Shown: one piece after another, positions 5,561-40,155 of the stretch
Position numbering within the stretch: position 1 is the first letter of the stretch
How the letters are laid out: every line of letters begins with the position of its first letter
NCBI GenBank assembly: GCA_009602725.1
Contig: WELB01000132.1
Location: 52,378 to 116,377 of the forward strand
Length of the DNA: 64,000 bases
Reading direction: 5' to 3'
DNA from: Spirogloea muscicola
Lineage: Eukaryota > Streptophyta > Zygnematophyceae > Spirogloeales > Spirogloeaceae
The notes under the pieces: generated by a model
The model's database searches: none
Told to the model about the DNA's origin: nothing
The model's input: the letters and a program-made list of their open reading frames with translations, nothing else
Made by a program: the position numbers and the translations under genes

Positions 5561-5569
5561 GGCCCCTTC

Positions 5570-5830: not shown

Positions 5831-5869
5831 GCTTCGCTTCACGTAGCCCCACTTGTTGAACTTGTTGCA

Positions 5870-6190
5870 CTAGAAGAAAGTGGCTTTCCCAAAGGGGGCA
5901 AGGGCTGTGAACAGCCAGCCTGAAAAAGAAAACAGCGTTTCCGAATTGACTGGTGGCTGTGAGAGGCCAGCCCAAATGAACGTATAAGGTCGGGAGGGGC
6001 CGGATGGCGCCAAAAGCAAGATACTAACTGCTAAGACGGCAGCAAGGGGGCTCTCGGTAACCTCGAGTCAGTGAGTGCAAGTCAGAGTAACTAGCAGGCG
6101 GATAGACGTCGCCCTGACGGAAAGCGGAGGCAGCAGCCAAGGCGCGGCCGAGAAGAAGTGACAAGGTCCGAAGGGGCCAGAAGCGCTTTT
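5870..6190 (-). mobile_element. LINE C-terminal tail plus 3'UTR fragments
   Basis: The minus strand from about 6140 to 6035 encodes ALAAASAFRQGDVYPPASYS, then DLHSLTRGY, the C-terminal signature of LINE family A. Its 3'UTR hairpin lies at 5945-5980. A further end-block fragment (5870-5925, minus) is joined to it. This is a 5'-truncated copy with a second fragment nested beside it. Confidence 0.75.
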
Positions 6191-6339
6191 CCAGAGCTAG
6201 CCCGGTAGGATAATCCTGAGTAACGTCTGGTGAGGAACCGCAAATCAGAATTTGCACTAGCCACTTTGCCTGAACAGAGCTACTGGCTTGGGAAGAGAGG
6301 GTTTGGCCACCCTCTCTTCCCATGCGCACCGCGCGCCTT

Positions 6340-6940
6340 CTCGGCGGGGGGCCCCGGCTCATTGCCGACGTGGTCACCACCAAGTGCTTGGATTCCAGGA
6401 CCGCCCAATGCTCGTCGGCGGAGGCGGGCTACGCAGTCCGCCAAGCGGCGGGCGTCTAGGAGCGGAAGTACTCGGATCACCCAGTGGGAGACGAGTTCGT
6501 CCCACTCGCCGTCGACGTACACGGAGCTTTTGGGACAGGATGGCTTGACTTTCTTCACCGCCTTGCGTGGCGTGCAGTGGCCCGCCGCCACGGGCAGCAG
6601 AGCGAGCAGCCTGGCTACAATGTCGCCGGGTCCCTCGCTCAAGTCTTCCGGATGCGCTTGGCCATTTCCTTGCAGCGGTCCCTTGCCTTCGCGGTTCACT
6701 TGCGCCGCGCAGGCCGCGCTTTGGCTGCGGCCTCCGGCATCCGTCAGGGCGACGTCCATCCGCCTGCAAGCTATTCCGATTTGCATCTACTGACTAGGGT
6801 TTACTGAGAGTCCCGTTGCTGCCGTCTTAGCAATTGGTATCTTGCTTTCTGCGCCATCCGGCTCCTTCAGACCTTGTCCATTCCTCTGGGCTGGCCTCTC
6901 ACAGCCACCAGGCCGCTTGGCCGCGCCTTCTCTTCTGTCT
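6340..6940 (+). mobile_element. LINE family A fragment: RLE end, C-terminal extension, 3' hairpin
   Basis: From 6355 the plus strand reads a decayed RLE remnant (ADVVTTKCLDS..., one in-frame stop) ending ERKYSDHP, which is the KxxKY-type motif of R2-like endonucleases. The open frame 6484-6807 then gives GDEFVPLAVDVHGAFG, LAISLQRSLAFAVHLRRAG and SYSDLHLLTRVY-stop. The 3'UTR follows with GGGCTGGCCTCTCACAGCC at 6887-6905. It is the best-preserved family A C-terminal extension in the window. Confidence 0.82.
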
Positions 6941-6984
6941 TTGCAGCCATCGCCCCCTGTGGAAGAGCAGCTCTGTGGAAGAGC

Positions 6985-7165
6985 TGCTACTCCAATGCTG
7001 TACGCACGGTGCTGGTGCGTTCACAGCCGTCCCCTTGATGTCAGCGGCCGCATTCCTCTACATTCTCCAGCTCATTACCCAGTTAATAGGACAGTTGTAC
7101 GGCTAGGATTGGCCTCCTTTTTCAGTTTCATGCGCACCGCGCGCCTTCTCTCCACAAGTACAAGT
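6985..7165 (+). mobile_element. Family B and family C LINE 3'-end fragments
   Basis: At 7015-7062 a diverged family B 3' end (TTCACAGCCG..., TCAGCGGCCGCATTC) is followed at 7068-7165 by the family C 3' end (CAGCTCATTACCCAG, AGGATTGGCCTCC, CATGCGCACCGCGCGCC). The family C end is the reverse complement of blocks at 12010-12100 and 20998-21110. Confidence 0.65.
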
Positions 7166-7545
7166 TTGCACACACAAGTGCACAAGTACAAGGACCACCC
7201 GGCGGGGTGCAGCCCTTCCCGGTGGCGGTGCCTTGGGGTCTTGTGTCCTGCTACCGCATGCGTTTGTCTATGTCGCTACAGCGTTCCCAAGCGCTTGCTT
7301 GGCATCGCCGCGCTGGTCGTGCCCTTGCAGCAGCCTCTGGCTTGCGCAGCGGGGTTGCTCTTCCTCCCCTCAGCTCATCTGACTTCCTACTGCTGACACG
7401 GGGGTACTAAGAGCGCCCTGGCTGCCTAGCCTGTGGCTCCATCATGAACACCTGTATGCATCTGGCTGGCTTTCACAGCCGCTCTTTTGATATCAGCAGC
7501 CGCATTCCTTCTCTCCAGATGTGCAGGTGCTTACTCGTGCGTAGT
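7165..7545 (+). mobile_element. LINE family B 5'-truncated tail
   Basis: The plus frame reads RMRLSMSLQRSQALAWHRR, AGRALAAASGLRSGVALPP and SSSDFLLLTRGY-stop (ends 7410). The family B 3'UTR follows: CATGAACACCTGTATGCATC, hairpin GGCTGGCTTTCACAGCC at about 7471-7487, then GATATCAGCAGCCGCATTC. The truncated copy ends about 200 bp before the ATG of the pseudouridine synthase gene. Confidence 0.82.
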
Positions 7546-7723
7546 AGAATCCCCCTTGGTGTACCAGCTCATGTTAGATCCTTCCCCGCTTTGTTCTCGT
7601 TACAAAGCATACTGGCTTGGCTTGGCCTCCCCTGCATTCGGTGCGCCCACCGCCACAGCCCAGGGCGCGAGGGCTGTGGCCACAGCGCCCGCTGTGGGCC
7701 GCCAAGCCCCGGGAGGTCCGGCA

Positions 7724-10700
7724 ATGGCGGCCGCGGCGGCGGGCGACGGCGAGGTCGCGGGCGTGGGGGCGTGGCACGCCGGGCTCAAGCGCCACGTCCG
7801 CGCCCCGNNNNGCCGCCCCCGCCGACTACATCCTCGCCGCTGGTCGCCCCCGAGCCCTCAAGCCCCCGAGTCCCCGTCGCCCGCCGCCGCCCCCTTCCGG
7901 CACCCCCCCACCTCTCACGCCCGCCGCTGCCCGCGCGCAGGCTTGCGCTACGTCCGCCCCTACTTCTTCGAGTTCGCTGCCCATGTACGTCGCCCTGCCC
8001 GGCCTCCTCGGCTCCTCCCGGGCTCACGCCTCGCGCCCCTGCTCACCAGCTCTCCTCGCCCCGCTGCCTACGCCCGGCAGGTGAAGCGCAGGTGGGCCGG
8101 CCGCACGCTCATCGACTTCTTCGCCCACGAGTTCCCGCAGCGGCCTCGCGAATACTATGTGAGCACTCGCTCGCTACAACCAGCATCGCTTGCACGGGGC
8201 TGCTGCTGCAATGCGCCCGACCCTGATGGGAGCCCGCCTCTGCCATGGATCCCTTGCAGCTGGAAGCCATAGCAGCAGGCCGCATCAGGGTCGATGGCAA
8301 GGTGGTCTCCCCTGCCTACATCATCAGCGACTCTCAGACAATGAGCCACTTTGTGCACAGGTCAATTGCTGGCTCGCCCGCAATACTCCTGGTTTAGAGT
8401 TGAGATAGAGGAGCTCAGCCTCTGATTGCACGAGCGTGGAGATGTCGCCCTCTGGTGTGGACGTTCAGCATTTGGGATATACTACAATCGGCAACCTTTC
8501 GTTCTAGCCCTATGTGACCTGTTGTGAGAAGTGGCCAACAGGCACGAACCGCCCGTTCTTGCTCTACCTGTGGTGGTGCTCACGGAGGACCCCGACGTGA
8601 TGACTGTGTGCAAGCCTGCTTCTGTTCCTGTGAGCAACTGGCGTTTGTTTTAGAAGTGGCCTCGTGACAGCCTGCGGTGCACCGCACTCGTCTCCTTGCA
8701 TGCTGGTGGATGGACCACTTGCAGCTGGTGTGCAATGTGCTAGTGAGCCTGGCTGATTCTGCAAGCCATGGCTTGTGCACTGATGTGAGAGTCTGGTTAA
8801 GAATGCACATCATTCACTCGCCTTGTGATCAGGTCCATCCTTGTGGTCAGTACCGCAAGAACACTGTTCTCAGCATACTGCAAGCGGAGCGAGACTGCGG
8901 GGGGCTCTATCGTATCCTCTTACTAGCCATGCAAGGTAAAACCGGCACTTCTGGTGTGTGCCCTGAATGCTCAACCAAGTGTGGGGACCACCTGCCCTTG
9001 GTTGCACATGGCAGCATCTGCATACAGCTTGTGATCAGGTACATGTGCAAGTGTGTTGGCCTGCAGTGTAGGCTCCAGGGTGAGATGGTCAGGGCATTTG
9101 TGTATCCAAGCCTTGACCAGCAAACCAAGCGGTTCATCGCCTTGATCGACTGGTGTCTGGCCTCCTCATACTAGCACGGAATGCAGCTTCTGCTGATCGC
9201 TTCCGGCAAGAGGTATGAGGAGCTTCTCAGATTATCTTGCCTTCCGTGCTGATTTGAATTCCTGGCAATGTCGAGGAAGCCACCTACACATCTTATGTGC
9301 TATCTCGCAAAGCAGTCAAGTACAAGTACTGAAGTCTCACTTGTTTTATGAGGCAAGCCATGGGCAGATTGTTGCTGGCACTGTGAAGAAGGAGTATGTT
9401 GCTAAAGTACTGGGGGTGTTCCCAGTCGAAGAGGTAAAGCAACAAGAGCGTCATGGGTACAGCTTTCTGGATGGCTGACCTGATGTGATGCTTCTCATCA
9501 TATTTGCTTCCTTTTCTGAAGTAGGCAACAATTATCCAACCGCCTGCACAGGGCATCCAAGGTTCATGCTTGCTTTGGCTGATGCTTTCGGCAGGTCAAA
9601 TGTGAAGCTGCTGTGAGGTACGACTCAAGAGAAGGGCGCAGCTATGTGGAGGTGCAGCCATTGTTCTTAATTGCGTGCAACAAGAAGCGAGCCTCAATCG
9701 ATCTTATTCTCAAAGCTCCCCATCTTAGATGCTCCAAGCTGCAGACATTGTGCCACTTGACCACTTCACGTGTCGATTAACCAAGTCATTGCACTCATCC
9801 CTACTGGCAATCATTTCGTGCATGATGTGCCTTGATGTGTAATATATCGTGCCTCCTCGCTTGAAGCTTGGCAGTGGCGGGCTTTGGGCAGTACCTCTCA
9901 TATACTGGCATGGTATGTGCTGCAGAAAGGCAGTTGCTCAGGTGGGCTTGATGACCTCCTACTGCCACACACTGCAGCAGTTTCTGGCCCGCAAGAGCTT
10001 CAGGTTGACAGCAAGAGCAAGGCAGCCCGTACAGACTTCCAAAGAATGAGCACAGATGGTGTTCATAGCATTGTGCGCTGCATGCCGTGGACGGGAAGGA
10101 CTCACCAGGTCGACCACGAACACCCAAGCTTGGTACCTGCTGGATATCGCAATTAGAGCTGACACGTCTTCAAGAAAAGCAGGATTAGTGGACAATGGCT
10201 CTTGTGCTTGGGCTGGGGCAGTGGTGTCGTGCGCAGGCCTTCTTGACACTACATGCACATGTAGTGTCCATGCAGAGTCAGCTGGCAATTGTCCCCCTGA
10301 CCTGCATCATTGCGTGCGAACTTCACTGGCTCGCGCTGTCTTGACCATGGGTGGCAGGCTCTGCCCTGTCTGCCGCAGATACGAGTCCATCTCCAGCACC
10401 TCGGTCATCCCGTCGCCAATGACGTACTGTACCTGGTTCAAGCGTCGAAGCAGGGGAGGATGCGAGGGTCCTTGGCAGGTTGTACAAGTACAATCGGACT
10501 CGCAAGAGACCCTGTCTCTCCATCTGCAGGTTCTGAAGTGGAGCAACCAGAAATAGTGGCAGGGCTGCGACAGGAGCAATGGCAAACTCCATCAAATGCC
10601 ATCCTTGAGGAATCAATGGCTGACGGACATGAGCTCCAAGAGAGGGGTCAAGGGCAGGGCAGCATGGCTGGACAGGACTTTCTGGCTGCTGCAATGGATG

Positions 10701-11416
10701 CTGGTCAAGCTAAGACCAGCAGGACCCACTCGAGCAAGCGGAGACCGGCCAACGAGTATGTGCACGACGCTGAGCTTGACATGCAGGCACCATCTGGAGG
10801 GCACGACTTAGAGTGGGCCAGCAAAAGCGCCGCTGACAGCGCCGAGTACACTTCTACCCCTCCGACAGGTGCTGTTGGTGGCTTTCGACAAGGGTTCGAT
10901 GGTGAGGCGGCACCATCAGGAGAAGAGGTCAGGATCGATGACCGTCCTGCAAATGAAGAGGGATTCTTGGCGCACACAACAGCGCACACTGGTGCTGCAA
11001 AGACTGCTACTACAATAGACTCTAGTCAGGGGGTTGGGGCAATAGATGCTGGATGTGGTGAGGGGAAAGTGAAGGATGAGGGAGGGCGGTCGGTTGCCGA
11101 GTGGGGGCCTGCAGAGCTCCTGGATGCCATGTGCACGCACTGCCCTTCATTGAGCCCCATCAGGTCAGTATAGGTGCACGCAAGAGATTTCTGCTGATGG
11201 TCATTGTGCTGCTAGACTTTTGCGGAAGAGGCTGCAATACGGGTCTTCACTTCTAGCGGACAACCGCACACAGGATCTACTGATTTGAACATGGAACGAG
11301 TGTCCAATGGCAGGTACAAGGATGATGCGGAGCCCCTGTGGTTGCACTGCGTGCGCTATGCGGGTACTGGGTGGGTGTACAATTGCCCTCTGCCGGCTTG
11401 GGCAGCAGGGGTGTAG
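7724..11416 (+). CDS. RNA pseudouridine synthase 7-like (RluA family)
   Basis: Converts uridine to pseudouridine in RNA. Traced exons: 7724 to about 7800 (with N gap 7808-7811), 7941-7984, 8081-8158, 8260-8360, 8542-8629, 8833-8911, 9130-9212, 9368-9433, 9595-9651, 10004-10108, 10379-11163, 11314-11416. The S4-like region reads [12 protein letters not shown] then [20 protein letters not shown]. The catalytic motif is [17 protein letters not shown], whose Asp is the family's catalytic residue. [17 protein letters not shown] follows across the exon 10/11 junction. The C-terminus [10 protein letters not shown] then [12 protein letters not shown] matches the plant PUS7 end. Between VANDVLYL and MCTHCP sits a low-complexity insert of about 200 residues without recognisable domains. 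ATG 7724 ([13 protein letters not shown]) is preferred, but exon 1 is interrupted by the gap. Confidence 0.9.
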
Positions 11417-12005
11417 TGGCAAGGTGGCCGCCGGTGGCAGGTAGGCCACCGCACTTCCGAGAGATGGTGATGACACCGGAGCTTCAAGGGACACTAGCAA
11501 ACTGGAGATTGCTGCTGTGCTATGTGTGCCTGCCTTCAAGGAGGATGCGCGCACAGTGATGGTTGTGGAGATGCTAGTGTGGGGGTCGCGAGGAGATTGT
11601 AGCTTGGCTGACAGTACTGTAGCTTGACAAAGCGATAGGCCCGCAGCCCAGTCTGCTGTGCTTGCCGCCTGTGCTGCTCTGTAGGTTGCGAGGGAAGTGA
11701 GAGGCCGGCGTTTTGTGCAAGTCGTGGAGAGTGATGATGGGTAGGAGTGGGTTAGCTTGTGATGTCGTTTGTGCCACGGACTAACCAGGCTGGCAGCATG
11801 GACGGGCGGGGCCAAGCGGTGCCTGCGAGGAGCGAGAAGCAAAATCAGCTCTGCAGGGCAGGCAGGGGCTGCACAGAGTAGGATGGAACACCATCCTCCT
11901 CCGACTTTTCAAGTTGTTTGCGGGCTGGCTTTCCACAGCCCTCGCCCCTTCAGAGGAGCTGCTTCTCTGCCGTACCTCGTCGTCCGCGGCGGCAGCAGGC
12001 ACAGG
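11417..12005. other. Intergenic, no gene seen
   Basis: This is the 3' flank of the pseudouridine synthase gene. A single LINE-like hairpin block (GGGCTGGCTTTCCACAGCCC at about 11925-11945, plus strand) is recognisable. Long minus-strand frames here are low-complexity and overlap the host gene in antisense. Confidence 0.5.
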
Positions 12006-12009
12006 AGAG

Positions 12010-12500
12010 GGAAGGCGCCCGGTGTGCATGAAATCGAAAGCGAGGCCAATTCTAGCCTTCCAAATGTCCTGTTAGTTGGGTAATGAGCTGGCTAAGGGGG
12101 ACACTAACATCCCCGAGTGAGCACATGCATATCTGACAAGCTATACTGAGGCGCCAAACGACCACCACGGAAGCCATTAGCCTGGGCAAATGCAAGACCA
12201 GCGCGCTGGTGTATCGTGAGTGCCTGGGAGCGCTGTAGACTCCATGATAGCCGCACTCCATAGCATGCAACGATGGCTTGCGGGACGTTAGAATGCCCTA
12301 AGCTACCCGCCCGACTACGTCGGTGGGCGTCGACATGCAGTGCCAGGCGGTGGAGGAAGGAAGACCACTTCGTTCCGCAGCCGCCGTATATGTCCATGGC
12401 GCATGGGAAGAAGTGGTCGCCCCAAGCGAGGAGGAGAGCCGGGCTGTGGAAGTGGGTTGCTGCGGTCACCGGCCGGTCCAGTCGAGGAGGGGCCGCGGCT
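12010..12500 (-). mobile_element. LINE family C 5'-truncated tail
   Basis: The minus frame (12104-12532) reads [36 protein letters not shown] and SLSDMHVLTRGC-stop, the family C version of the shared C-terminal extension. The 3'UTR continues to about 12010 with AGCTCATTACCCAACTAAC and the GGCCTCGC...CATGC end. It abuts the first exon of TM9SF in antisense. Confidence 0.82.
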
Positions 12501-15500
12501 GCGGAAGGCCGCGCGCCCAAGGTGCCGGACAAAGCTCCGGGCTGCTGGGCAGTGGCAGTGGCGGTGGCGCCCGGCCCGACGGCCCAACGGCCCCGCCCGG
12601 CCCACCGGCCCCACCTCCCCGCCCCCGCGCTCCTGCGCCGCCANCCGCGCCTGCTGCCGCTCCTGCTGCTGCTTCTGGCCGGCGCCGCCGGCAGCGCCGC
12701 CTCCGGCTCCGATCACCGGTACAAGCCCGACGACGAGGTGCCGCTGTACGCCAACAAGGTCGGGCCCTTCCACAACCCCAGGTAAGCGTCCCCCCCTCCT
12801 CGCCTCGCGCTGGCCCCGTCGCGGCGGGCCCAGCCAGATCTCTCCGGCGCCGCAGCAGTCTTGCCCAAGGCACCCTCCACTGCCGCCCTTTCCAATCCAC
12901 TGCCCATGTGATGGCCTTCACCGTGTGCTCCCGGGGACTGCATGTTGTCGTGCGTGCCTCTGCCTGGCACCCTGCGGTCTCCCAACGACCACCCGACGGG
13001 CTCTGGCTGAGAGTCCCCGCTGGGTGTCGCTTATCATTGGCCGTTGCCTGGCGCTGCGTGCAGCGAGACTTACAAGTATTTCGAGCTGCCCTTCTGCCGG
13101 CCTGGTGAGGAGCGTCACTCTCAGTTGCGTGCGTCCCGCGTGCAGCGGCTGTCAACCTGCAATTCTCTAGTTGTCAGAGAGTGGACCACGACTTGCGATT
13201 GCCACCCGTGAGCAGGTGTTGCGATTCGACTGAGATTGTGTCCGAGGGGTCTGGAGGACACAACTGTGCGTCAGAAGGCAAAGTGTCCAAAGCGGGGGAT
13301 CAGGCCATGCGCTGATGGATTTCTGGCAAGCATGCAGGCGCCGGGCTCAAGGAGAAGACAGAGGACTTGGGCGAGGTTCTGAACGGTGACAGGATGATGG
13401 ACGCCGCATACAAGCTCCGATTCCGAACTGACTATCCAAAGGAAACGCTTCTCTGCAAGAGGGAACTGAACCAGAAGGACATGCAGGCATTCAGGAAGGC
13501 TGTGAAGAACGACTACTACTTCCAAATGTATTACGACGACCTTCCCATCTGGGGCTTCATCGGCAAAGTGGAGCCCGATGAGAAGGTGTGCACCCGCCGT
13601 CCACCACAAACCGTCGCCGCGTCCAGGAGCCAGGCTATGGCTTCTGGGTTCTTGGCTTGTCACTTCCCAACAGTGCCCTCACACAGTTCCTGCAAGCAAC
13701 CTAAGGAGCTCCAAGTGGAGCACTCTGGAGGTCTTTCTTGTGACCGGGATTCATGTCATCGGTTGTTGCATTCACAAGCTGGGAGGGCAGCAAAAGCAGG
13801 GCAATATCGCATGAGCATCAACGGATCCTTGGCTTCTGACGCAGATTGGTCAGCCTCTCTGATGCTACTCTTACTACCCCTTGCAGGACAATCACCGCTA
13901 CTTCCTCTTCACCCACATGCATTTTGACATCTTCTGCAATCACGACCGTGTGATTGAGATTAACGTCGCAACAGATCCTCAGCACACGGTGGACATCACC
14001 GATGACAAACCAATCGAAGTGGAGTTTACGTATTCGGCGACGTGGCAAGACACTGACAAGGCCTTTGACAAGCGCATGGAGAAGTACTCAAAGTACTCCT
14101 TCTTGCCCCAGCACCTGGAGATCCACTGGTTCTCCATCCTCAACTCCTGTGTCACAGTCCTCCTGCTCACGGGCTTCCTGTCCACCATTCTCATGCGTGT
14201 GCTCAAGAATGACTTCATCAAGTATGCTCCCTATTGCCTGGACCTTTCCCAACCAATTGATCTTGCGTGTTACTGATTGGCTTCACGACGTTGGGATCTG
14301 AGTATGTTTGCACGGCCGCTTTGTAGTCGTCCTCCTTCGAAGAACTCTCATAGCCAGGGATTCTTGATGCTTTCATCTCACAGGAGAGTGGTGATGCACA
14401 AGGCACGAAGAATAGATCATCTTCATTGGTTGGTGGGTGTAGTTCTCTCTGCAGCACGTTGTACAATCTCATACAGAGTTCTGGCTTTCGACTGTACTTG
14501 AACAGGTATTCCCGTGATGAAGAGGCGCTTGATGATCAGGACGAGACTGGTTGGAAGTACATCCATGGGGACGTATTCCGGTTTCCTCCCTATAAGAGCT
14601 TGTTCTGTGCAATACTTGGCAGCGGCACTCAGCTACTTGCTCTGTAAGTCCTGCGAACCTGTTGAACCCAAATGAGGTCCTCCAGCAACCCTGCCAGCAT
14701 TCTTGTAAGCTTTGACAGACACTGACATCACAATTTGTCAAAGTGAAAGCTCTAAGCCCCTATTGTCGGACTTGGTGATGAAGCAAGCACTGGCTTACGG
14801 CTACAAGCTCAAGATAACACCGGGCTGATTGTGCGAGCAGGGCAATATTCATCTTCATGCTGGCCCTCATTGGTGTCTTCTACCCTTACAACCGGGGTGC
14901 ACTGTACACTGCTCTTGTAGTCATCTATGCACTCACGTCTGGAATTGCTGGGTACACGGCGGCTTCGTTCTACAAGCAGCTAGAAGGCACCAACTGGGTA
15001 ATTCCTGAAAGGGGATCCGGGGATTCTGACGTGATGACTACGTTGTCAGATGACCTCAATGTCCTGGTTGTTTGTTTGTGTGAGCATGCCAACCGCACTT
15101 GGTGTAGTAGATGCACGTCTGCCACTGCAGCAGCTGCAGGATGTGACGCCTTGACATGCATTGTATGCTGGTGGTGTTGGCAGGTTAGGAACGTACTGTT
15201 GACAGGTTGTCTCTTCTGTGGCCCAGTCTTTATGACCTTTGCTGTCAACAATACCATAGCCATTGCTTACAACTCAACAGCGGCGCTGCCCTTTGGCACA
15301 ATAGTCGTCATTCTCCTTATCTGGACACTTGTGACCTCTCCCCTTCTTGTCCTTGGAGGCATTGCTGGCAAGAACAGCAAGTCCGAATTCCAGGTATGTG
15401 CAACACTCGTATGGAGAAAAGAGCGACAAGAATGGCGAGGAGAGAGCAACCCCTGCTCAATCTACTAGTGCATGTCCTCATTCACCTGGGCCGTTTATGA

Positions 15501-16270
15501 GGTTCTTCTTGCAGAGCACTGAGTCGGGTCGGGTCGAAGAACGAACATGTAGAGCGCCTGGTTTAATCTCCAAGCTTGCCAAGACTGGGCTGTTCCGACC
15601 TTTGTCTGACCATACGCACCCACTGCTTATGCTGCAGGCGCCTTGTCGAACAACCAAGTATCCAAGGGAGGTTCCTGCACTACCTTGGTATCGCCAGAGT
15701 CTCCCGCAGATGGCCATGGCTGGCTTCTTGCCCTTCAGTGCTATCTACATCGAGCTCTACTACATCTTTGCTAGCGTTTGGGGCCACAAAGTCTACACAA
15801 TCTACAGCATCCTGTTCATTGTGTTCATCATCCTCATCATCGTGACAGCATTCATCACCATCGCCCTCACATACTTCCAGCTTGCTGTCGAGGATCACGA
15901 GTGGTGGTGGAGGTAATGTAGCACCCTTCTTGAGTGAAGCATGATCACCTTGATCCTGTTCAAGCTCACGTCATCAGCTGCAAGCACCCCGTCAGCCCAC
16001 CTTCCGACAAAGTGACCAGCCTCGTGCTGTCCTTCTCGCTCGCGCTACAGGTCTTTGCTCTGCGGAGGCTCGACGGGCTTGTTTGTGTTTGGCTACTGCT
16101 TCTACTACTACTATGCTAGATCAGAGATGACAGGGTTCATGCAGACATCCTTCTTCTTCGGATACATGGCCTGTGTGTGCTACGGGTTCTTCCTCATGCT
16201 CGGTACCGTAGGGTTCCGTGCATCACTGGCCTTCGTCCGGCACATCTACCGCTCCATCAAGTGCGAGTGA
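12396..16270 (+). CDS. Transmembrane 9 superfamily (nonaspanin) protein
   Basis: Golgi/endosomal nine-membrane-span protein involved in membrane protein sorting. Exons: first exon to 12781, then 13064-13104, 13338-13585, 13887-14221, 14506-14643, 14841-14997, 15184-15393, 15638-15912 and 16051-16270, all phase-consistent. A hydrophobic [19 protein letters not shown] signal-like stretch precedes [20 protein letters not shown], the mature N-terminus of the family. [25 protein letters not shown] and the multi-span half follow ([33 protein letters not shown]). The C-terminus HIYRSIKCE ends in a KxE/D Golgi-retention type motif. The start is unclear: the only in-frame ATGs upstream of the signal stretch (12390, 12396) fall inside the antisense LINE relic, and an N lies at 12644. 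12396 is given provisionally. Confidence 0.92.
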
Positions 16271-17110
16271 TGCGAGTGACGTCGGCCAAACCAGGTGAGT
16301 GCTGCTGAAATCAGGGCACTAGACTGGTGTTTGACGTCGTAAAGGTCCAGACCTTCGTTCATAGATGGCCAAGCCCATCCCTGTAACAGTTGCTTCCACT
16401 GCTGTGGTTTGCAGGCCTCTTATCTCGAGCGCGACCCCAGCCGCAACTGGCAGACCCTTAGGGTGTCTAGCAGGCATGGGCGGCATCACAGCTGCCTCAG
16501 CTTGATTCGGCCGAGAGAGGGAACGCTGGCACCCTCCCACTGCTCGAAGACAGTGCACCATGTGGCCTCTGGCCTCACCAGCGCCTCAGCCTGCCCTGCG
16601 GCGACCGTGAGGCAGGAGCTGTGGCCGGCTCCTGCCTCACGAAATCGCAGCAGTGAGCAGATGGCCCAAGCCTATGGTGGTTTGTAGGTCCAAGAGAGGG
16701 TGCTCTGCAGGCGAGGCATGGTGGCTGTGGGGTTTGGCAGGGTCCAGTGTGATATGCACAGGGATTGCGCAGAAACAGATGGCTTGGGGAAAGGGGGGGG
16801 TGGGGGAGGGACGGCGCGAATGGCTGGAGAGCAGGATGTGGCGTCCCCAGGATGCGGGAGGCAGGAAAGGCGGTGGGGGCATGGAGTGGGAGAGAACAGG
16901 GTGCGAATGAAGGGGGGCCGTGGCCGTGGAGCGAGGGCGCGCGGTGCGCTTAAAATGGAGGGGGGTGGAAAGCAAGCCAGTGTGGTGAGCTGAGCGGAGC
17001 AGAGGCGCGCTTGGTTAGCACAAGGAAATGAGAGATGGAGGGCCTGTGTATTGAGAGATGGAGGGCCTGTGTGGCCAAGTACAAAGGCAAGCACATTGAC
17101 AAATGTGCGT
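16271..17110. other. G-rich intergenic segment with short direct repeat
   Basis: No gene is recognised. 16640-16990 is strongly G-rich on the plus strand, with runs up to nine G near 16792-16800. The 20-mer GAGAGATGGAGGGCCTGTGT occurs twice, about 24 bp apart (near 17030 and 17053). It serves as the 3' flank of TM9SF. Confidence 0.55.
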
Positions 17111-18838
17111 CACCTGCTGCTAAGCTGACCCGCTCAGTAACCACGAGTCTGCACATAGAGGTCGCTGACTGATGCCCGAATACTGGACGGCAATCGATAA
17201 GCTCTTGAGCTACCAGCTAAGGCTCGACCAGCTTTCTGATGCAACGCATGAGCCTGAGCTCGCTGCAGACAAGCTGACACTCGCCGTCGCAAGAATGACA
17301 AGTAGGCTGCCGGCATGCCCATCTGAGCTGAAAGCATATCCTCACATCGAGCACCCAAACTTGCAATATTCTCCAGCAGGGTATGGAAGCTAGGGCCCAT
17401 GCAGCCGAATGTGTCAACTGCCGCCGGTAGGAGGTGATCGCTGCGGGGTAAGTCAGAGTGGTGTCGGAGCTCTCTCTGCTCAGCACCTCCCACTGCGTGA
17501 CCAGCAATGTGTATCGATGGAACTCTTGTATGCCTCCGTCACCATCACATCAACCAAGGCTCGTGGGCCTTCGCCCGGTTGTACACCCACAATGCCAGGG
17601 TGCGCCGGTGATGGCGTCCCTGGGAATTACTGGTGACGGGCAGTATATTGCTCACTTCCACAATGGCGCGGTAGTCGGCGTCGCGCATCAGGTCCGCCAG
17701 GGCGTCCGTAGGAGATTATGGACGCCCACCACCTCAGGGCCTGTGGGACACCGCAGCATGTGGGTGGCAAGGTCTTCGCCTTCTATATGGAAGCTGCACT
17801 CACACTGAGTCACACCAATCAGGCAGGTCGGGGGCAGGCCTAGCAACATATGGAGAAGCGTCCGATATGCCTCGGGGACTGAATTTGAATGCGTTGTTGA
17901 TGGCGTCTTGTGAGCCAGTCTGTTGCTTCAGGTGTTGCGAGCGATGTGAGACGTGCCAGACTCCTTGGATTGGTCCTGATATCTGGCATCCTCCTCAATG
18001 TCTTGCGTCGCTCATCCTCAATTGCAGCGACGAATCTGGCCTGTGCCCATGTGTCTGATGCTTGGGCAAGCGCTGAGAAGGGAGTGAAGAGGGGTTGCAG
18101 GGAGGGGAAGGAGCAGAGTGCTGACTCACGGATGCTCCTCAATTGCACTTGGAATGCCAAGGAGCCTTCCTCCACCTCGGCTGTAGGGCCAGCCAGACAA
18201 GGGAAGCGCAAGGCAACCTGGTGCCAGCAACCGAGAAAGGCTGCCTGCTCCGTCTGTTCAAGTGCCCGGCAGCCCAGGCCACCCATTCGTGTGGGAAGGG
18301 ATGCCTGCAGGGAGGATGAAGGTGAGGGGAAGGATGGGTGTTGTTTCAGGGAAGCCAGGGATTGCAGGAGGGAGGTGTCGGACTCCTTGTACAGCTCGCC
18401 CACCATGTCCGTTGGGGCGACTCTGCTGCAGGTAGCCCGCGCGTTGGCCGATGCAGCGAGTGAGGAGTGCCAGCGCCAGCTTGAATCTCCGAGGAGAGGA
18501 AGGGGGGGAAGGGGGGCAAGGTGTTGCTGCAGTCGTTCAAGTAAGTCCTCCGCTACGTGGGACTGTGCAAAGGGAAACCTTGAAAACAGCCAGCCCAGTG
18601 GCCGGGGTCTGGCAGCCTGGTGGGAGCTGGAGGTTGGTGGGGAGACCACGTGGTGACCATGCCACGTTCTTGGTGGGGCAAACCCGTATGTCTATAGTGC
18701 TCTGTTCGTGTACGAGTAAGGGATAAGCCGCCATGACTTCTGACGGTGGGCCGACGATATGTGTGTCGTCGGCGTAGGAGGGAAAGAAGCTGGGGTGCAT
18801 AAGGGCGGGGGGGAGGAGGCGTGGTGTGCGCGTGAGAC
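17100..18838 (-). mobile_element. LINE family E: RT end, linker, C-terminal extension
   Basis: Read on the minus strand, 18800-18537 holds the reverse transcriptase catalytic box SYADDTHIVGPP. 18649-17840 is one open frame of 269 residues with the thumb/linker motif MGGLGCRAL. Past its stop the zinc-knuckle remnant ...CECSFHIEGEDLATHMLRC is visible. The C-terminal extension (17493-17134) ends SACLQRAQAHALHQKAGRAL and SVSDLYVQTRGY-stop. Frames change several times and the RLE core is poorly kept, so the copy is dead. It is the only family E copy with RT; a short family E 3'UTR piece also occurs at 40158-40205. On the right it meets a family B copy at about 18840. Confidence 0.78.
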
Positions 18839-18839
18839 T

Positions 18840-19320
18840 TGCGGCTGCTGATATTCAAAAATCGGCTGTAAAAAGCCAGCCAGATGCATACAGGTGTTCA
18901 TGACGGAGCCACAGGCTAGGCAGACAGGGCGCCCTTAGTACCCCCGTGTCAGCAGTAGGAAGTCGGATGAGCTGAGGGGAGGAAGAGCAACCCCGCTGCG
19001 CAAGCCAGAGGCTGCTGCAAGGGCGCGACCAGCCCGGCGATGCAAAGCAATCGCCTGGGACCGCTGTAGGCACATAGCTAAACGCATGCAGTCGAGGACA
19101 CAAGACCCGAAGGCACCGAGCCTCCAGGAAGTGCTGCACCCTGTTCGCGGCGCCGCTGGTCAGCTTGAGAGGCCAGCAGCGAAGCTAACGAGGACCACCG
19201 ACCCTTGTAACACCCGCGGATGTCCATGGCCAGGGGGTAAAAGAGACGAAAGGGTGGCCAGATGGAGCCGACACACTGTTGGGGCACGAGCTAGTGAAGG
19301 AGGAAGGCGCACGGTGGGCC
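18840..19320 (-). mobile_element. LINE family B 5'-truncated copy next to family E
   Basis: The minus strand carries the family B C-terminal extension (LAMDIRGCYKGRWSSLASLL at about 19230) and then the SSSDFLLLTRGY end near 18945. The family B 3'UTR (GTCATGAACACCTGTATGC, hairpin GGCTGGCTTTTTACAGCC) ends near 18840, where family E RT sequence begins. Either it inserted into that element or its 3' end marks the latter's truncation point. Confidence 0.75.
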
Positions 19321-20290
19321 ATTCCTTCGGGCTGGCCTCTCACAGCCGCCAGTCAATCTGGCCGCGCTTTCTCTTTTTCGGGCTTCCCCTGGCCCCTACG
19401 AACTTTGTTCATTTGGGCTGGCCTTTCCCAGCCCCTATCCTCTAAGAACGAGGTTTTCTCCGGTGGGCGTGGAATTAAGAGAAAACCCGAGTAGAGGGCG
19501 GTGGCTGTTAGAGGCCAGCCCAGAATACAGAATGGAATGAACAAAATTCGAAGGGGCCAGAAAAGCTCCAAAGCACACCGTGAATTAATAGCCACGAAAA
19601 GCACTCAGTGATCCCTGGAACGGGAGGCCAAGGAGCGGGGCACCGGGCCAAGAAGAAAGAAGACGTTGCTCTCCCTCGCTGTCCCAATGTGGGCAAGGGC
19701 TGTGATAAAGCAGAAGAACGCTTCCAGGAGAGGGCGGTGGCTGGGAGAGGTCAGCCCAGAAAAAAAGAAAGGAAATGCACAAACTTCGAAGGGGCCAGGG
19801 ACAACGCTGAAGCACACACGGAATCAAGTAGCTACGAAACTCACTAACCCCGACTAAGCAGCCGCAGGTCGAAGAACCTAGTCTCCTGAGAGATACTAGT
19901 TTCTGGTAGCGGATCCCCTGGCTAGGGCCAGAGGCTGCAGCTAAGGCACGACCGGCACGGAGATTCAGCGCGCGAGCCGTGGACCTCTTTAGCGAGACGG
20001 CCAAGCACATGCGATACACCTGCGCGAGCGAGCCTGCTGCATGGGATTCTACCTGCCCCCCAAGGCTGCGGCGGGAAGAAGAAAAGAAGAGATTGCTCGC
20101 CCATAGAAAACGAGGGGCTAGGGCTAGCAAAGCCAGCCCAGAAAAGAATGGACACTATCCAAAGGCCACAGAAAGGTGCCGAAAAGAAAAAACTACACAA
20201 CTGGACACGAAATGATGCAGATGGAAGCTCAGTATCCACGAGTGAGCAACAGCAAGGCAGAATAACTCGAAGCCGGGAAAGAGGCACTCC
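19320..20290. mobile_element. Mosaic of LINE 3' fragments, both strands
   Basis: Two plus-strand hairpin blocks (about 19325-19365 and 19405-19450) are followed by minus-strand fragments. Hairpin blocks lie at 19495-19560, 19680-19700 and 19735-19800. A coding tail at about 20020-19900 reads AGSLAQVYRMCLAVSLKRS and LNLRAGRALAAASG. Another hairpin lies at 20105-20160 (minus GGGCTGGCTTTGCTAGCCC). At least four separate insertions are piled up; none keeps RT. Confidence 0.7.
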
Positions 20291-20790
20291 GCTGGGGACC
20301 CGCTTCCAGGAACCCAGTCTCTCTGACTTGAGGCTGCTTAGCAGGGGTTACTGAGTGCTTCGTAGCTGCTTCGTTTGTTTTTGTGCTTGTTGTTCTTCGT
20401 ACTTCCCCTGGCCCCTTCTCGTCCTTTGTTCATTCTTTTTTGGGCTGGCTTTTTCCTGCCCCTATCCTCGATGGGCGAGCCCTTCATCTCTCCGCCTAGA
20501 CCCAGAGGCCCACGCCGTCCACACGCGAGCAGGCCGTGCTATGGCCGCCGCCTCTGGGTCTCGGTGGAGTGCCTCTTTCCCTGCAGCGAGCTACTCAGAC
20601 CTGATGTTGCTCACTCATGGGTACTGAGCTTTCCTGCATCGTCTCTGAGTTCTGCGGTGTTTTGTAGTGATGTCCTTTTCCGGCTCCTCTTTCTTTGGCT
20701 TTGGACATTGTCCATTCTTTTTTGGGCTGGCTTTGCCAGCCCCTCTTCTCTATGGGCGCGCACTTCTCAGAGGCGGCAGCCATAGCGCAG
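20281..20790 (+). mobile_element. Two LINE family D tails with perfect 3' hairpin
   Basis: The first tail ends at 20353 (LSDLRLLSRGY-stop) and its 3'UTR runs through 20430-20480. The second (about 20500-20627) reads HTRAGRAMAAASGSRWSASF and SYSDLMLLTHGY-stop. The 3'UTR then gives the perfect inverted repeat GGGCTGGC-TTT-GCCAGCCC at 20724-20742. Both copies are 5'-truncated. Confidence 0.75.
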
Positions 20791-20833
20791 CCAGCGCGCG
20801 TGTGGACTGGAGAGAGCGCTTTCCCTTTTCCTA

Positions 20834-20920
20834 TTGCTGGAAAGAGACCGCCAGCCTCATACGAAATACCTGGGCACCGCCAGCCTCATACGGAATACCT
20901 GGGCTAGGGAGCCGGCAGCG
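20834..20920 (+). repeat. Short tandem duplication (about 34 bp, two copies)
   Basis: GCCAGCCTCATACGAAATAC-ctgggcaccgc is repeated immediately as GCCAGCCTCATACGGAATAC-ctgggctaggg. The unit is about 34 bp with few differences. It lies between LINE fragments and is probably a slippage duplication. Confidence 0.6.
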
Positions 20921-20994
20921 ATGAAGCCAAGCAGCTCCCCTGGCAGACCCGGCCGCCGCTCGATGGCCTGCCGGGCAAGCCGCTGGAGAGAGAG

Positions 20995-21935
20995 AGAGAG
21001 AAGGCGCGCGGTGCGCATGAAATTGAAAGGGAGGCCAATCTTAGCCTTACAAATGTCCTAGCCCTACAAATGTCCTGTCACCTGGGTAATGAGCTGGCTA
21101 AGGGTGACACTAATATCCCCGAGTGAGCACATGCAAATCTGACAAGCTATACTGAGGCGCCAAACCACCACCACGGAAGCCATTAGCCTGGGATAATGCA
21201 CGACCAGCATGCTGGTGTATCGCGAGTGCCTGGGAGCGCTGTAGACTCAATGATAGCCGAATTCTATAGCATGCAACGATGGCTTGCGGGACGCTAGAAC
21301 GCCCTAAGCTACCCGCCCGACTGCGTCGACGGGCATCGACATGCAGTGCCAGGCGATGGAGGAGGGACGACCACTTCATTCCGTAGCCGCCGTAGATGTA
21401 CATGGCGCATGGGAAGAAGTGGTCGCCCCGGGGGTGGTCATTATAGTGCCTCTCCTTCTTCCTCTCTGCGTGATGTGTCGCCCAACCTGGCACAGTCGGT
21501 GTGGGTGCCCCTGGTTGTAATGCATTGATGAGAACGACGTCGATGAGAAGACGAGGCCCACCATTCCGGGGAATGGCCACCACATCCAGACGCCTGACGT
21601 AAGGCCTGCCACGCTTCTGGAGCACCGGCATGATGCCCGGCATCTCCATGGCCGCATGGTAACCTGCCTCGCGCTCCAAGCCATACATAGCGTCTCCGCA
21701 AAGATTGTGGAGGCATTACGTTCACTTCCCTCAAAACATCGAAGCATGTGGGCTGCCAAAAATACCTCATCCTCGGAACGATGGCCACATTCACACTGTC
21801 GAATGCCAACCAAACAAAGTGGAGGAAGGCCGAGATGGTGTTGGACAGCCGTCCGGAAGAGGTCGTCGGAGAGCCGGAGGGATTCAGAAATTGGCAAAGC
21901 GTTGAGCCACTCCGACGCCCCCGTAGAGCTGATGG
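20995..21935 (-). mobile_element. LINE family C: linker, RLE and complete C-terminal extension
   Basis: The minus frame 21897-21376 begins with the linker LGLPPLCLVGIRQ, then the zinc knuckle CECGHRSEDEVFLAAHMLRC (C-x-C-x12-H-x3-C). After a frame change, 21688-21110 reads the endonuclease: RLDVVAIPRNGGPRLLIDVV, then ERKKERHYNDHP (KxxHY). The extension [39 protein letters not shown] and SLSDLHVLTRGY-stop follows without a break. The 3'UTR ends near 20998. It is the cleanest RLE-plus-extension reading frame in the window. RT is missing, cut near 21930 where another LINE fragment starts. Confidence 0.85.
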
Positions 21936-22130
21936 AGTTGAGACGAGGAGATCCATCCAGCCACCGCCGAAAGCCCCGTGAACGTCAATGGCCAGGGCCG
22001 CGAACTCATCACCTGGAGGGTGGTCGGCGTACTTACGCTCCTTGCCCCGGGCCGCCAAACCGACCGCATGCCCAGCGGTCGACGCCGACTTGGCGGGGTT
22101 GGCGGAATCGACGTAATCGGCGGTCACCAC
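21900..22130 (-). mobile_element. LINE family A RLE fragment
   Basis: The minus strand from 22130 reads VTADYVDSANPAKSASTAGH, AVGLAARGKERKYADHPPGD and EFAALAIDVHGAFGGGWMDL, i.e. the end of the RLE with an exact KxxKY (KERKY) and the start of the C-terminal extension. It is cut off at about 21930, where the family C sequence begins, so one element interrupts the other. Confidence 0.75.
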
Positions 22131-22139
22131 ACCCGCGAT

Positions 22140-23420
22140 ATTATGGTGCCCTCCTCACTCGTGGTTATGAGCATCCATCTGCATCATTTCGTGTCTTGGT
22201 GTATACTTTTGTCTTTCCTGGCAATGTTTTGTGGCCTTTTGAGGCCTGCGGACAACGTCCATTCTTTTCTGGGCTGGCTTTGCTAGCCCCTCTTATTCTA
22301 TGGGCGAGCCCTCCCACCTCCTCCGGGCGGGACGGCGACTAGGTCACAGGTCTGCGCGCAGCTGGATGGGCATAATTGACGTGTTTTCCACGGCCACCTT
22401 GTAGCTCGCCGTCATGAACACTGCCTGCATGCCGTCTCGCAGGAGGTCGTGGGTCCTCTCGTCTCGTGTTTTGTAGTGCAGTCCTCTTTCGGCACCTGTT
22501 TCCTTTGGCTTTGGACATTGTCCATTCTTTTTGGGCTGGCTTTGCGGGGGCTCAGGTCCCAGTGGCTCGACCTGCTGGCCAGGCTTGCGCGGCGCGCTGT
22601 GTCCCGCAGGCGAGGTGAGCCGGCTGACTTCAACGCCGCTGGCTCGTGGGCCCAAGTCTATCTATCGCATGCGTTTGTCAATCTCCCTTCAGCGGTCCGT
22701 GGCCCACGCCTTGCATCTGCGTGCTGGCCGTGCTCTCGCCGCAGCCTCTGGCTTTCGTCAGGGGATAGTTTTCCGGCAGCTCGTCTGTCGGATTTGAGGC
22801 TCCTCACTCGTAGAGTGGTCCATCGTCCACCCCTTCTGACATAGCATTCTCAGGCCCCTCCGTCATTGTGGCCCCTTCGAACCTTTGTCAATTCTTTTCG
22901 GGCTGGCTTCTCACAGCCCTTGCCCCCATTGAGCAAGCGCGGCCAGATTAACTGGTGGCTGGGAGAGGCCAGCCATTGGAAGAGCCACTTCATCCTCCCC
23001 CGTTCTGCCATAGCCTCTTCAGGCCCCGCAGTCGCTGCTTAGCTCGTAGTTTGGCCCCTTCGAACCTTGTCAATTCTTTTCGGGCTGGCTTCTCACAGCG
23101 GTCCCTAGCTTTTGCGGTCCACTTGCGCGCAGGCCGCGCTCTGGCGGCGGCCTCCGGCTTCCGTCAGGGCGACGTCTTTCCGCCTGCTAGCTACTCAGAC
23201 TTGCATCTACTGACGAGAGGTTACTGAGAGTTCGCTTACTGCTGTCTCAGTCCTTAGCACTCCGACTCCTTCAGACCTTGTCCATTCTTTTGGGCTGGCT
23301 TCTCCCAGCCACCAGTTAATCTGGCCGCGCTTGCTTCCTTGCCCCCATTGGGAGAGCCACTTCTTCTCTATCTTTGCCAGCCCCTCTTCTCTATGGGCGA
23401 GCACTATCTTCACCTGCGGC
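22140..23420 (+). mobile_element. Run of five or more LINE 3'-end fragments
   Basis: Hairpin blocks lie near 22255-22320 (GGGCTGGCTTTGCTAGCCC), 22515-22550 (cut short), 22870-22940, 23050-23100 (cut short) and 23270-23370. Coding tails lie at 22550-22800 (RSQWLDLLARLARRAVSRR, LSDLRLLTRR) and 23096-23227 (AFAVHLRAGRALAAASGFRQ, SYSDLHLLTRGY-stop). Junctions at 22548 and 23097 fall exactly inside or after hairpins, suggesting new copies integrated into older 3' ends. Confidence 0.75.
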
Positions 23421-23429
23421 AGGAACAGC

Positions 23430-23835: not shown

Positions 23836-23839
23836 TATG

Positions 23840-31690: not shown

Positions 31691-31970
31691 GGCAGCAGCA
31701 GTGGCAGGAAGGATGGCGGGTGGGAAAAGAGAATGCAGCTGCTGATATCAAAATTGCGGCTGTAAAACGCCAGCCAGATGCATACAGGTGTTCTTGACGG
31801 AGCCACAGGCTAAGCAGACGGGCGCTCTTAGTACCCCCGGGTCAGCAGTAGGAAGTCAGATGAGCTGAGGGGAGGAAGAGCAACCCCGCTGCGCAAGCCA
31901 GAGGCTGCTGCAAGGGCGCGACCAGCCCGGCGATGCAAAGCAATCTCCTGGGACCGCTGTGGGCACATAG

Positions 31971-32513
31971 CTAACACATGCGGTCGCAGGACACAAGACC
32001 CGGAGGCATCGAGACTCCAGGAAGTGCTGCACCCTGTTTGCGGCGCCGATGGTCAGCTTGAGAGGCCAGCAGCGAAGGGAATGAGGACCACCGACCCCTG
32101 TGACACCCATGGATGTTGATGGCCAGAAGGTAAAAGGTATCACCCACCGGGTGGTCCTTGTACTTGTGCAACTTCTTCTGTTCGGCCCCTTTGGCAGCAT
32201 AGCCGGTCTCAGAATTTATGGGGCCGTTCTTCCGGAAGCTGTCGGTGAGGACGATGTCCATGAGGAGCCGCTTGCCAACTCCCAGGGGGACGCCAACCAG
32301 ATCAACACGCCTCGTCCGAGGGACCCAATTGCGGAGTTGGACGGGCATCACCCCGGTGCTCTCCAACGCCACTTGATATCCCACCTCCTTGACGACGCCA
32401 TACATCGCGTCCCGTAGGAGGTTGTGAGAGGCCCGTGCGATCGCTGCCTTTGGCACACCTGAGCATGTGGTCACCCATGAGCAATGCATCATGCTCAAAA
32501 AGCTCACATTCAC
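31971..32513 (-). CDS. LINE restriction-like endonuclease and C-terminal extension (family B)
   Basis: Reads DAMYGVVKEVGYQVALES, RRVDLVGVPLGVGKRLLMDI, VLTDSFRKNG and AEQKKLHKYKDHP. R-x-D, the following D and KLHKY correspond to the (R/K)PD...D...KxxKY catalytic pattern known from R2 endonucleases. It passes straight into GDTFYLLAINIHGCHRGRW, the extension shared with families A, C and E. A frame change near 31975 separates the last 45 residues. Confidence 0.8.
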   Translation of the reverse strand: MNVSFLSMMHCSWVTTCSGVPKAAIARASHNLLRDAMYGVVKEVGYQVALESTGVMPVQLRNWVPRTRRVDLVGVPLGVGKRLLMDIVLTDSFRKNGPINSETGYAAKGAEQKKLHKYKDHPVGDTFYLLAINIHGCHRGRWSSFPSLLASQADHRRRKQGAALPGVSMPPGLVSCDRMC

Positions 32514-33255
32514 ATTGGGTCAACCCTGCCAAGCACAGGGATGGTAAGCCAAGACGGCGGCGCATAGCAACGCAAAACAAAGCATTTTCCATCCGCAAGC
32601 CCGCATGCAAAGGCAAAGCGCGGAGCCACTCAGACGCTCCCAGAGACGAAACCGATAGGAGCCGAGCCTGGCCTCGAGCATCCCCTTGGAGGAGACTCCA
32701 GAGATGCTCCAGTGGTTGCTCGTCTGCAGCACGGAGAAACCGCGATTGAGCCTTGACATCAGAAACGTCAGCCCAGGGAGCAAGCCAAACAGGCTCAATT
32801 ATCAGAGGCAGGTATACGGCAAAGAGGTCCTGTTGGCATGCTTTGAGAGTCACTTGGAAAGGCAGACTCCCCTGAACCACGTTATTGATGTGAGGCGCCA
32901 AAACACTTTGTTGCCCAAGGAGGAATCGTCCAGATATGGGCGGAGCTACCTGAGCCCTGCAGCCAGGGTACGCTGGTCTGCACAAGCGGACGGAGGGGCG
33001 ACAACCAAGCCCGTGACGTATGGGCAGCGTACACTGCACTAGTGCTGCTGGAGCCTGCTCTAGGAGTGGGTGAGCGATCAAATCAGCAAGGCATTGCTGA
33101 AGCTTGACATCAATGGATGCATAGATAGCATCCAAGCTGACCGAAGGTGGGACCGTTTGCAGGAGGTAACATGGTCGCTGTGCCACACTCCTGGTCAAAA
33201 TGACCACTGCCAACTGAGACTCCCCAAGGCTGGGGAGCTCTGGCAGGACCTGCAT
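32302..33255 (-). CDS. LINE thumb/linker segment with zinc knuckle (family B)
   Basis: A 317-residue frame following RT after one frame change. It contains the HGLGCRPSVRLC linker motif that follows the thumb in R2-like elements, then LGLPSLCLAGLTQ and the knuckle CECELFEHDALLMGDHMLRC, with the same spacing as family C (C-x-C-x12-H-x3-C). After HMLRC the frame is lost and the endonuclease continues in the next ORF. Confidence 0.75.
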   Translation of the reverse strand: MQVLPELPSLGESQLAVVILTRSVAQRPCYLLQTVPPSVSLDAIYASIDVKLQQCLADLIAHPLLEQAPAALVQCTLPIRHGLGCRPSVRLCRPAYPGCRAQVAPPISGRFLLGQQSVLAPHINNVVQGSLPFQVTLKACQQDLFAVYLPLIIEPVWLAPWADVSDVKAQSRFLRAADEQPLEHLWSLLQGDARGQARLLSVSSLGASEWLRALPLHAGLRMENALFCVAMRRRLGLPSLCLAGLTQCECELFEHDALLMGDHMLRCAKGSDRTGLSQPPTGRDVWRRQGGGISSGVGEHRGDARPTPQLGPSDEAC

Positions 33256-33261
33256 GTAACC

Positions 33262-34521
33262 TTAGAGACGAGCACCCTCCGAGAAAGACGGTCCCCTTAG
33301 TGGCACTCCCAAGATCCTCAAGCCGCCCTCAGGAGTCTGACAAGATGTAGGCAATGAGGGAAAGAGGGAAAGAGGGATGCCAACGGGGGCCCAGGTGGAG
33401 CATGTAGCAGGATTGAACCCTAGCCCGATGAGCTGGAGCTGGTGCTGAAGCGTGCCGAAAGCTTGCAGCACCTCCTCTGGGCGGCCGAGGAGCGTGGTAT
33501 CATCCGCGTAGCTCAAGAGGAGAACGCCAGGGTGAGCGCTCGCCGTATTGCGCAAAGCACGGTGATGCGCCAGAGCAAAGAGAAAACCACCCATGGCATC
33601 ACCTTGCCGTGTCCCCGTCTTTGACTGCAAAACAGCCAAACAATTCCCTGCCCCCCACAACAATGCAGATGGCAAGCCATACATGCATCGGAAGTGAGGG
33701 AGGAGGGTGGGAAAGATACAGAACGTTCCGCTGCAGACAAATGTCCCGTCGTACTGCCTTAGCTCCTCGGCAATGACCTGCCGATCCACGGAGTTGAATG
33801 CCTTCCGTACATCGACGCTCAAGGCCAGCCAATGGGGGTTGACATCCATTGCCGCTCGTACCCCGTGCACCAGGGTCTCAGCGCCAGCACGCATCCCAGT
33901 TTCAAAGTGGTGGGGATGGAAGTGCGCCTGGGCATCGTCCTGGATCTGCATGATTAGGGTGCGCCCCACGAGGCGCGACAGAACCTCCCCCATCGAGATA
34001 GGACACACTCCCCCGCTGTCCTTCTGCAAAGCAATGAGATTGCTTGTGCAGAGGACTGCGCCTACTCGTTGGGTGAGGTGTCCACGCGCAACATGTTGTG
34101 CAACCCTAAGCAGCAGATTGAAATCCTCCGAGTCGTCCTCCCCATACAGCTCCCGCAAGTGCTCAAAGAGCATGCCCGATGGACCCCCGGCGACTGCCTT
34201 GCGGCTACTCACAATCGCCCGACGGAAGGCAGCCGGGTCCAGGTCCACCGGTTGAGCAGGCGTGAAGCTCTCCAACCATGTATCTAATCTTCGCGGGGCC
34301 GGAGGATGGAGCTGCTTGAGTGCGGCCAAGGTTGCCGCATCAAGCGGTGCTGGTGTCGAGGGCTCCAAGGCTTGGGCAGCCCTGGCAAGGTCGCCGGCTC
34401 GTCCAATCGGATGGCACGTCGCTTGCCCGCCTCCTTGATATCGGACTCCGACGTGGTGGGCCGAAACTTGGCTTGCGCGAGTTGAGCAGCCGCTTGGTGC
34501 TTTGCTAGTAGCAGCTGCCAC
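33262..34521 (-). CDS. LINE reverse transcriptase segment (family B)
   Basis: A 419-residue open frame. RT motifs in order: the upstream block VAGGPSGMLFEHLRELYG; GGVCPISMGEVLSRLVGRTL (motif 2 type, R...PI); ALSVDVRKAFNSVDRQVI (motif A, catalytic Asp); TGTRQGDAMGGFLFALAH (motif B); LLSYADDTTLLGRPEEV (motif C, YADD); then GFNPATCSTWAP. Together they place it in the non-LTR class. A short insertion-like stretch (DGTFVCSGTFCI) sits between motifs A and B. The first roughly 25 residues are probably out of frame with the real protein. Confidence 0.85.
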   Translation of the reverse strand: MAAATSKAPSGCSTRASQVSAHHVGVRYQGGGQATCHPIGRAGDLARAAQALEPSTPAPLDAATLAALKQLHPPAPRRLDTWLESFTPAQPVDLDPAAFRRAIVSSRKAVAGGPSGMLFEHLRELYGEDDSEDFNLLLRVAQHVARGHLTQRVGAVLCTSNLIALQKDSGGVCPISMGEVLSRLVGRTLIMQIQDDAQAHFHPHHFETGMRAGAETLVHGVRAAMDVNPHWLALSVDVRKAFNSVDRQVIAEELRQYDGTFVCSGTFCIFPTLLPHFRCMYGLPSALLWGAGNCLAVLQSKTGTRQGDAMGGFLFALAHHRALRNTASAHPGVLLLSYADDTTLLGRPEEVLQAFGTLQHQLQLIGLGFNPATCSTWAPVGIPLSLFPSLPTSCQTPEGGLRILGVPLRGPSFSEGARL

Positions 34522-35827: not shown

Positions 35828-35837
35828 CCCGCCCGCC

Positions 35838-39719: not shown

Positions 39720-40155
39720 ACAATGATCAGCAACCTTTACATAAGAAAGTAAGCCAAAAGCCAGCCCGCAAGGATGAACAAGGTCCAACGGGTCCGGAAA
39801 GAGCTGGTATACACCACCGTGCAGGTACCACGAAGAATGGTCATTTATAATCTCTGGTAAGCAGCCACAGTCAGAAAGACTAGCCCCCGTGAGGCAGTCC
39901 CCTTGACGATAGCCAGAGGCGGCAGCTTGAGCACGGCCAGCTCGCAGATGCAAGGCATTGGCAAATGACCGCTGGAGGGAAATGGACAGGCGCTTACGAA
40001 CCACCTGCGCTAGCGAGCCAGCAGCGTCGAAGTCAGCCTGCCCGCCCCGCCGACGCAGTGCAAGCTTGGTCAAAAGGTCTAGCCACTGAGACACAAGAGC
40101 CCCGTGCACGTTGATGGCCAGTGGAACGAAGTCGTCCCCTTCCGATGGCTCTACT
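39720..40155 (-). mobile_element. LINE tail, A-like family
   Basis: The minus strand reads HGALVSQWLDLLTKLALRRR, LSISLQRSFANALHLRAGRA and GASLSDCGCLPEI, i.e. the C-terminal extension with a diverged end (no TRGY). A remnant of the 3' hairpin block lies near 39755-39790. It borders the 3' end of the lysyl-tRNA synthetase gene. Confidence 0.7.

Follow-up and report, generated by a model that had tools for sequence, protein, structure and literature searches.

Published R2-type long interspersed nuclear elements (LINEs) encode a knuckle with the spacing CX2-3CX7-8HX4C, and the KxxKY motif lies on the second helix of the restriction-like endonuclease (RLE) fold. L1-type elements carry an apurinic/apyrimidinic endonuclease (APE) and not an RLE, while the layout of Dualen combines APE and RLE. 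Dualen and Zepp are LINEs of green algae, reported in PMC8226300; Zepp and Zepp-like elements are described there as L1-type, and LINEs with both APE and RLE are mentioned in PMC3636483. Here we describe LINEs of the streptophyte alga Spirogloea muscicola, found in a stretch of 64,000 nucleotides (nt) of contig WELB01000132.1 (positions 52,378 to 116,377, forward strand), referred to as the window. Their proteins continue well beyond KxxKY, and an initial annotation had interpreted this tail as an extra domain following the endonuclease. On the basis of predicted structure we propose, with a probability of about 0.9, that the tail is instead the C-terminal half of the RLE domain of RLE-bearing LINEs, with no domain added. 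It is a real and selected segment, comprising the second half of the known RLE and a short end. No description of this green-algal RLE LINE group was found in PMC, as judged by titles and the start of abstracts, and a pattern search with the tail alignment returned 21 matches in viral and 28 in prokaryote contigs, none of which was confirmed by tblastn.

A green-lineage alga or plant is the best fit to the content of the host genome, in which 68 exon matches to light-harvesting proteins, four RuBisCO small-subunit genes in two parts each, and TTTAGGG repeats (none for the reversed control) were found; split small-subunit genes encoded by the host are a mark of the green lineage. The tail recurs in the host genome far beyond chance. 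Queries with the tails of families A, C and E each gave at least 150 scored matches, spread over many contigs, with weakest listed E-values of 3.7e-55, 2.7e-54 and 5.2e-50, respectively. A family B reverse transcriptase (RT) query gave 102 matches, many within open frames of 1200-1500 residues. Seventeen regions expected to contain long copies were analysed (L039-L048 and L055-L061), and in 15 of these a frame of at least 500 residues has the (T/S)RGY end noted initially, the A copy in the window ending in TRVY instead; L042 has no frame of 500 residues or more. The alignment comprised eight copies whose frame is open across both RT and RLE: A (L040), A2 (L041, which begins shortly before the RT), B (L059), B2 (L060), C (L058), E (L055), G (L056) and H (L057). 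Outside the alignment, besides L042, are three family A copies like L040 (L039, L044, L047), partial A types (L045, L046, L048), L043 and L061. The initial count of at least four families with this tail was correct for those four and too low overall, as at least six lineages (A/A2, B/B2, C, E, G, H) share it. The length first given, about 120 residues, was near the 108-110 residues that follow the KxxKY tyrosine in the aligned copies (114 in family A when counted from the catalytic lysine). The aligned elements are single reading frames encoding an RVT_1 RT (PF00078, above the Pfam cut-off in all six proteins scanned), a CxC...HxxxC knuckle between linker and RLE with its C, C, H and C invariant in all eight, and the RLE. 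For an N-terminal zinc finger the best Pfam match was zf-C2HC_2 in family E (E 4e-4, below the cut-off), with weaker matches in the other proteins. These elements are RLE-bearing LINEs, the clade being left open.

In both structure models computed from the eight sequences, the C-terminus follows the order of a PD-(D/E)XK fold whose helix 2 carries Lys and Tyr, and Asp, Asp, Lys and Tyr are invariant in 8/8 aligned copies. KxxKY would lie on the second helix and bear the presumed catalytic lysine, the GDxFxPLAxDxHG motif would form the fourth strand of the sheet, and LSxSLQR and RAGRALA would be situated on helices past this strand, as in R2. The top structural matches of the model were R2 chains. 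In the model the tail begins with the fourth strand, and the structure comparison (VIA), in which families missing from the match lists are not thereby excluded, aligned the helices after this strand with the C-terminal portion of R2 RLE domains. Model residues up to about 240 of 262 align with the R2 RLE, the C-termini of R2Tg and Platysternon R2 falling at residues 240-241. R2 had initially been taken to stop shortly after the endonuclease motif; this is wrong for R2Bm, which has 88 residues past Lys1026 (length 1114). As KxxKY is a mid-domain motif, conservation beyond it is to be expected and is no sign of a new domain. The tail would be part of a nuclease that presumably primes reverse transcription by nicking the target DNA.

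The initial proposal, that the whole segment of about 110 residues is an extra domain binding the element RNA or a host factor, could draw on its conservation under selection over six lineages and on the lack of any Pfam family at E<=1 in the tails of the six full proteins scanned. For the first 85-90 residues or so it is largely contradicted by the fold order and the R2 matches, which place most of the segment within the RLE, and the stretch that follows the equivalent lysine in R2Bm also speaks against it; we consider such a domain very improbable. Several observations weigh against the assignment to the RLE. A PDB search with a profile of the region returned no R2 chain and a single chance match (E 1.3), so that it is by fold comparison that the segment falls within the R2 domain, and the link to R2 rests on fold and motif order, not on sequence similarity. 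The models were built from just eight sequences and reached mean predicted local distance difference test scores (pLDDT) of 67.8 and 58.4; in the first model, confidence is low over the distal half of the last long helix (pLDDT 47-58). The VIA output consists of ranges and does not pair individual residues, the tail exceeds its R2Bm counterpart by 26 residues, the knuckle spacing is unlike the published one, and among RLE LINEs the direct comparison covered R2.

Selection at the protein level, also suggested by the initial annotation, was borne out. With the NG86 method, dN/dS (non-synonymous to synonymous divergence) for the part after W was 0.064 (A-A2), 0 (B-B2), 0.208 (A-H), 0.148 (A-G) and 0.154 (G-H), and for the RT of the same pairs 0.118, 0.147, 0.127, 0.170 and 0.161, respectively; the tail values (0-0.21) are similar to those of RT and RLE. 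Between lineages, synonymous distances were high to saturated, and B-C, A-B and A-E gave no ratio because of saturation. The pair analysis included also L045, L046 and L048; in pairs involving L046 or L048 the RT figures cannot be relied on, since these two copies are truncated there and aligned out of frame. Mean protein identity over the six lineages was 0.505 for the part after W, 0.615 for RT, 0.501 for the linker, 0.516 between the knuckle and KY and, over the last 40 residues, 0.59; the tail is about as conserved as its enzyme. A regular expression identified 22 A-type tails in 38 loci (some overlapping), of which 21 with the same length, 15 of them distinct, were retained. These gave a dN/dS of 0.10 over 105 pairs and a ratio of non-synonymous to synonymous differences per site (pN/pS) of 0.26 in the 37 youngest pairs, the dN/dS being pushed down because the sequences were best matches to protein queries and the motif was required in an open frame. 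Selection would not be disproved by a dN/dS near 1 among young LINE copies, since a copy can decay freely once it has inserted.

The final stretch of about 22 residues, which closes with SD(L/F)xxLTRGY at the stop codon, has no counterpart in R2Tg and Platysternon R2, and it is possible that only this stretch remains as an extra piece. Past the R2 end it would form a short, conserved strap, for which the RLE/linker or nucleic acid at the nick is the most likely contact. An added, exposed C-terminal motif that docks on a host protein, the element RNA or the RT core is an explanation to which we give slightly less than even odds. It agrees with the presence of SxSD and of RGY at the stop in all eight copies, with the position of the two R2 ends in the model, and with the A-A2 comparison of the last 22 codons, in which a pS of 0.62 and a pN of 0.02 indicate that the protein rather than the RNA sequence is kept. 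It is weakened by the low confidence of this block (pLDDT about 40 or less in both models) and by the second model, with which a docking site for the last 22 residues was sought and none was predicted; moreover, the comparison covered R2 chains only, and other RLE LINE clades, such as NeSL, CRE or Utopia, may have the same end. A more specific suggestion appears doubtful, namely that an algal RLE LINE clade has in this end a new docking motif dependent on a free C-terminus, for example for holding a 3' untranslated region (3'UTR) hairpin or a host factor in target-primed reverse transcription. R2 proteins have been used carrying C-terminal tags.

Alternatively, the protein end might be conserved as an RNA 3' region recognised by the RT. 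Directly behind it are seemingly short 3'UTRs (about 100-135 nt, estimated by eye from where copies cease to agree), and four of the eight copies have a common hairpin, GGGCTGG-loop-CCAGCC: A (L040, 4935-5064), A2 (L041, 4018-4142), G (L056, 3900-4024) and H (L057, 3942-4066). The earlier statement that 3'UTRs differ between families therefore fails in part. Smaller hairpins occur at a similar place in B, B2 and E, and none alike in C; the common hairpin is a candidate RT recognition element. Several window matches restricted to the last 20 codons or so would suit an RNA role, and pS of the last 22 codons is somewhat under that of the part after W in B-B2 (0.10 against 0.17) and A-H (0.39 against 0.54), so a small RNA constraint is possible. 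As the reason for conservation of the protein end, however, RNA recognition is largely refuted by A-A2, in which synonymous sites have diverged (pS 0.62 against 0.52 after W) and the protein is kept, and it is highly unlikely.

In the window, tblastn with the eight family tails located 25 tail places, partial for the most part. The tails of families A, B, C and E were all found where the initial annotation had placed them, subject to minor corrections. The A copy has a stop codon at the catalytic-lysine position just before the tail and is therefore broken. The features below come from the tail search unless stated otherwise.

6460..6804, + strand: family A tail, ERKY to TRVY, stop at 6805-6807
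6487..6525, + strand: GDEFVPLAVDVHG, fourth beta strand of the RLE fold and following turn in this A copy (predicted fold)
7198..7407, + strand: family B C-terminal fragment, behind the A tail on the same strand
12110..12421, - strand: family C tail fragment, 67% identity to C copy L058
17137..17487, - strand: family E tail, stop at 17134-17136
18938..19242, - strand: family B tail, in two pieces
21113..21466, - strand: family C tail, stop at 21110-21112
31831..32183, - strand: family B tail, frameshift near 31975
32431..34407, - strand: family B RT and linker, same broken element as the preceding tail (RVT_1 in frame 33262-34530)
39858..40142, - strand: diverged A-like tail, 60% identity to L040, match ending 4 residues short of the end

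Interrupted family E pieces run on from the E tail to 18800. Five matches contain only the last 19-23 codons (6057-6122, 20232-20300, 20283-20351, 48754-48810, 63088-63144), and four of these continue into the 3'UTR of their own family, as if 5' truncation points cluster there. LINE 3' ends of different families are closely packed in both orientations, as seen in L010, L015, L025, L026 and L038 and at 5466-7511, 20121-20745 and 22250-24104 of the window. Behind 30 A copies, 46 other LINE ends were found within 600 nt, 14 of them within 50 nt, with no significant same-strand bias (28 same, 18 opposite, p 0.18); nested insertion or template jumping could explain this packing. An Rfam scan of the window gave nothing at gathering cut-offs. 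L001-L008 are Ty3/Gypsy-like long terminal repeat retrotransposons, which are probably young, as their open frames are identical or near-identical at several places. Two related proline/tyrosine-rich frames with AYPPP-type repeats (25002-26237 and 35276-36853) have the common C-terminal end CWVCIVKSL, and the latter begins where the 5' pieces of the broken B element lie on the opposite strand.

Comparative studies of R2-type nucleases can draw on the many-copied families with open frames as a compact collection of algal RLE LINEs, and the conserved free end of their proteins poses a small, testable question. Among known systems, Dualen and Zepp resemble these elements in being algal LINEs. The endonuclease-like domain of Prp8 belongs to a splicing protein, unlike the LINE RLE, and in the Prp8 crystal structure the site is blocked by a loop, which is held by the would-be active-site residues. 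R2 differs from the algal elements in several respects: the Asp-Asp and Asp-Lys spacings are 15 and 30 in family A (Asp-Lys being 2-3 fewer in B, C and E) against 13 and 17 in R2Bm, and the algal tails, besides their extra length after Lys relative to R2Bm, extend about 22 residues further than R2Tg and Platysternon R2. Algal copies lie on many contigs; the R2 clade proper is characterised by insertion at the R2 site in 28S rRNA genes. Because the middle of the algal CxC...HxxxC knuckle is longer than in the published spacing, the elements are assigned neither to R2 nor to another named clade. With R2 (R2Bm, R2Tg and Platysternon R2) they share the order RT, linker, knuckle and C-terminal RLE, the Asp/Asp/Lys set with Lys on helix 2, and a fourth strand and later helices that align to or near the R2 ends.
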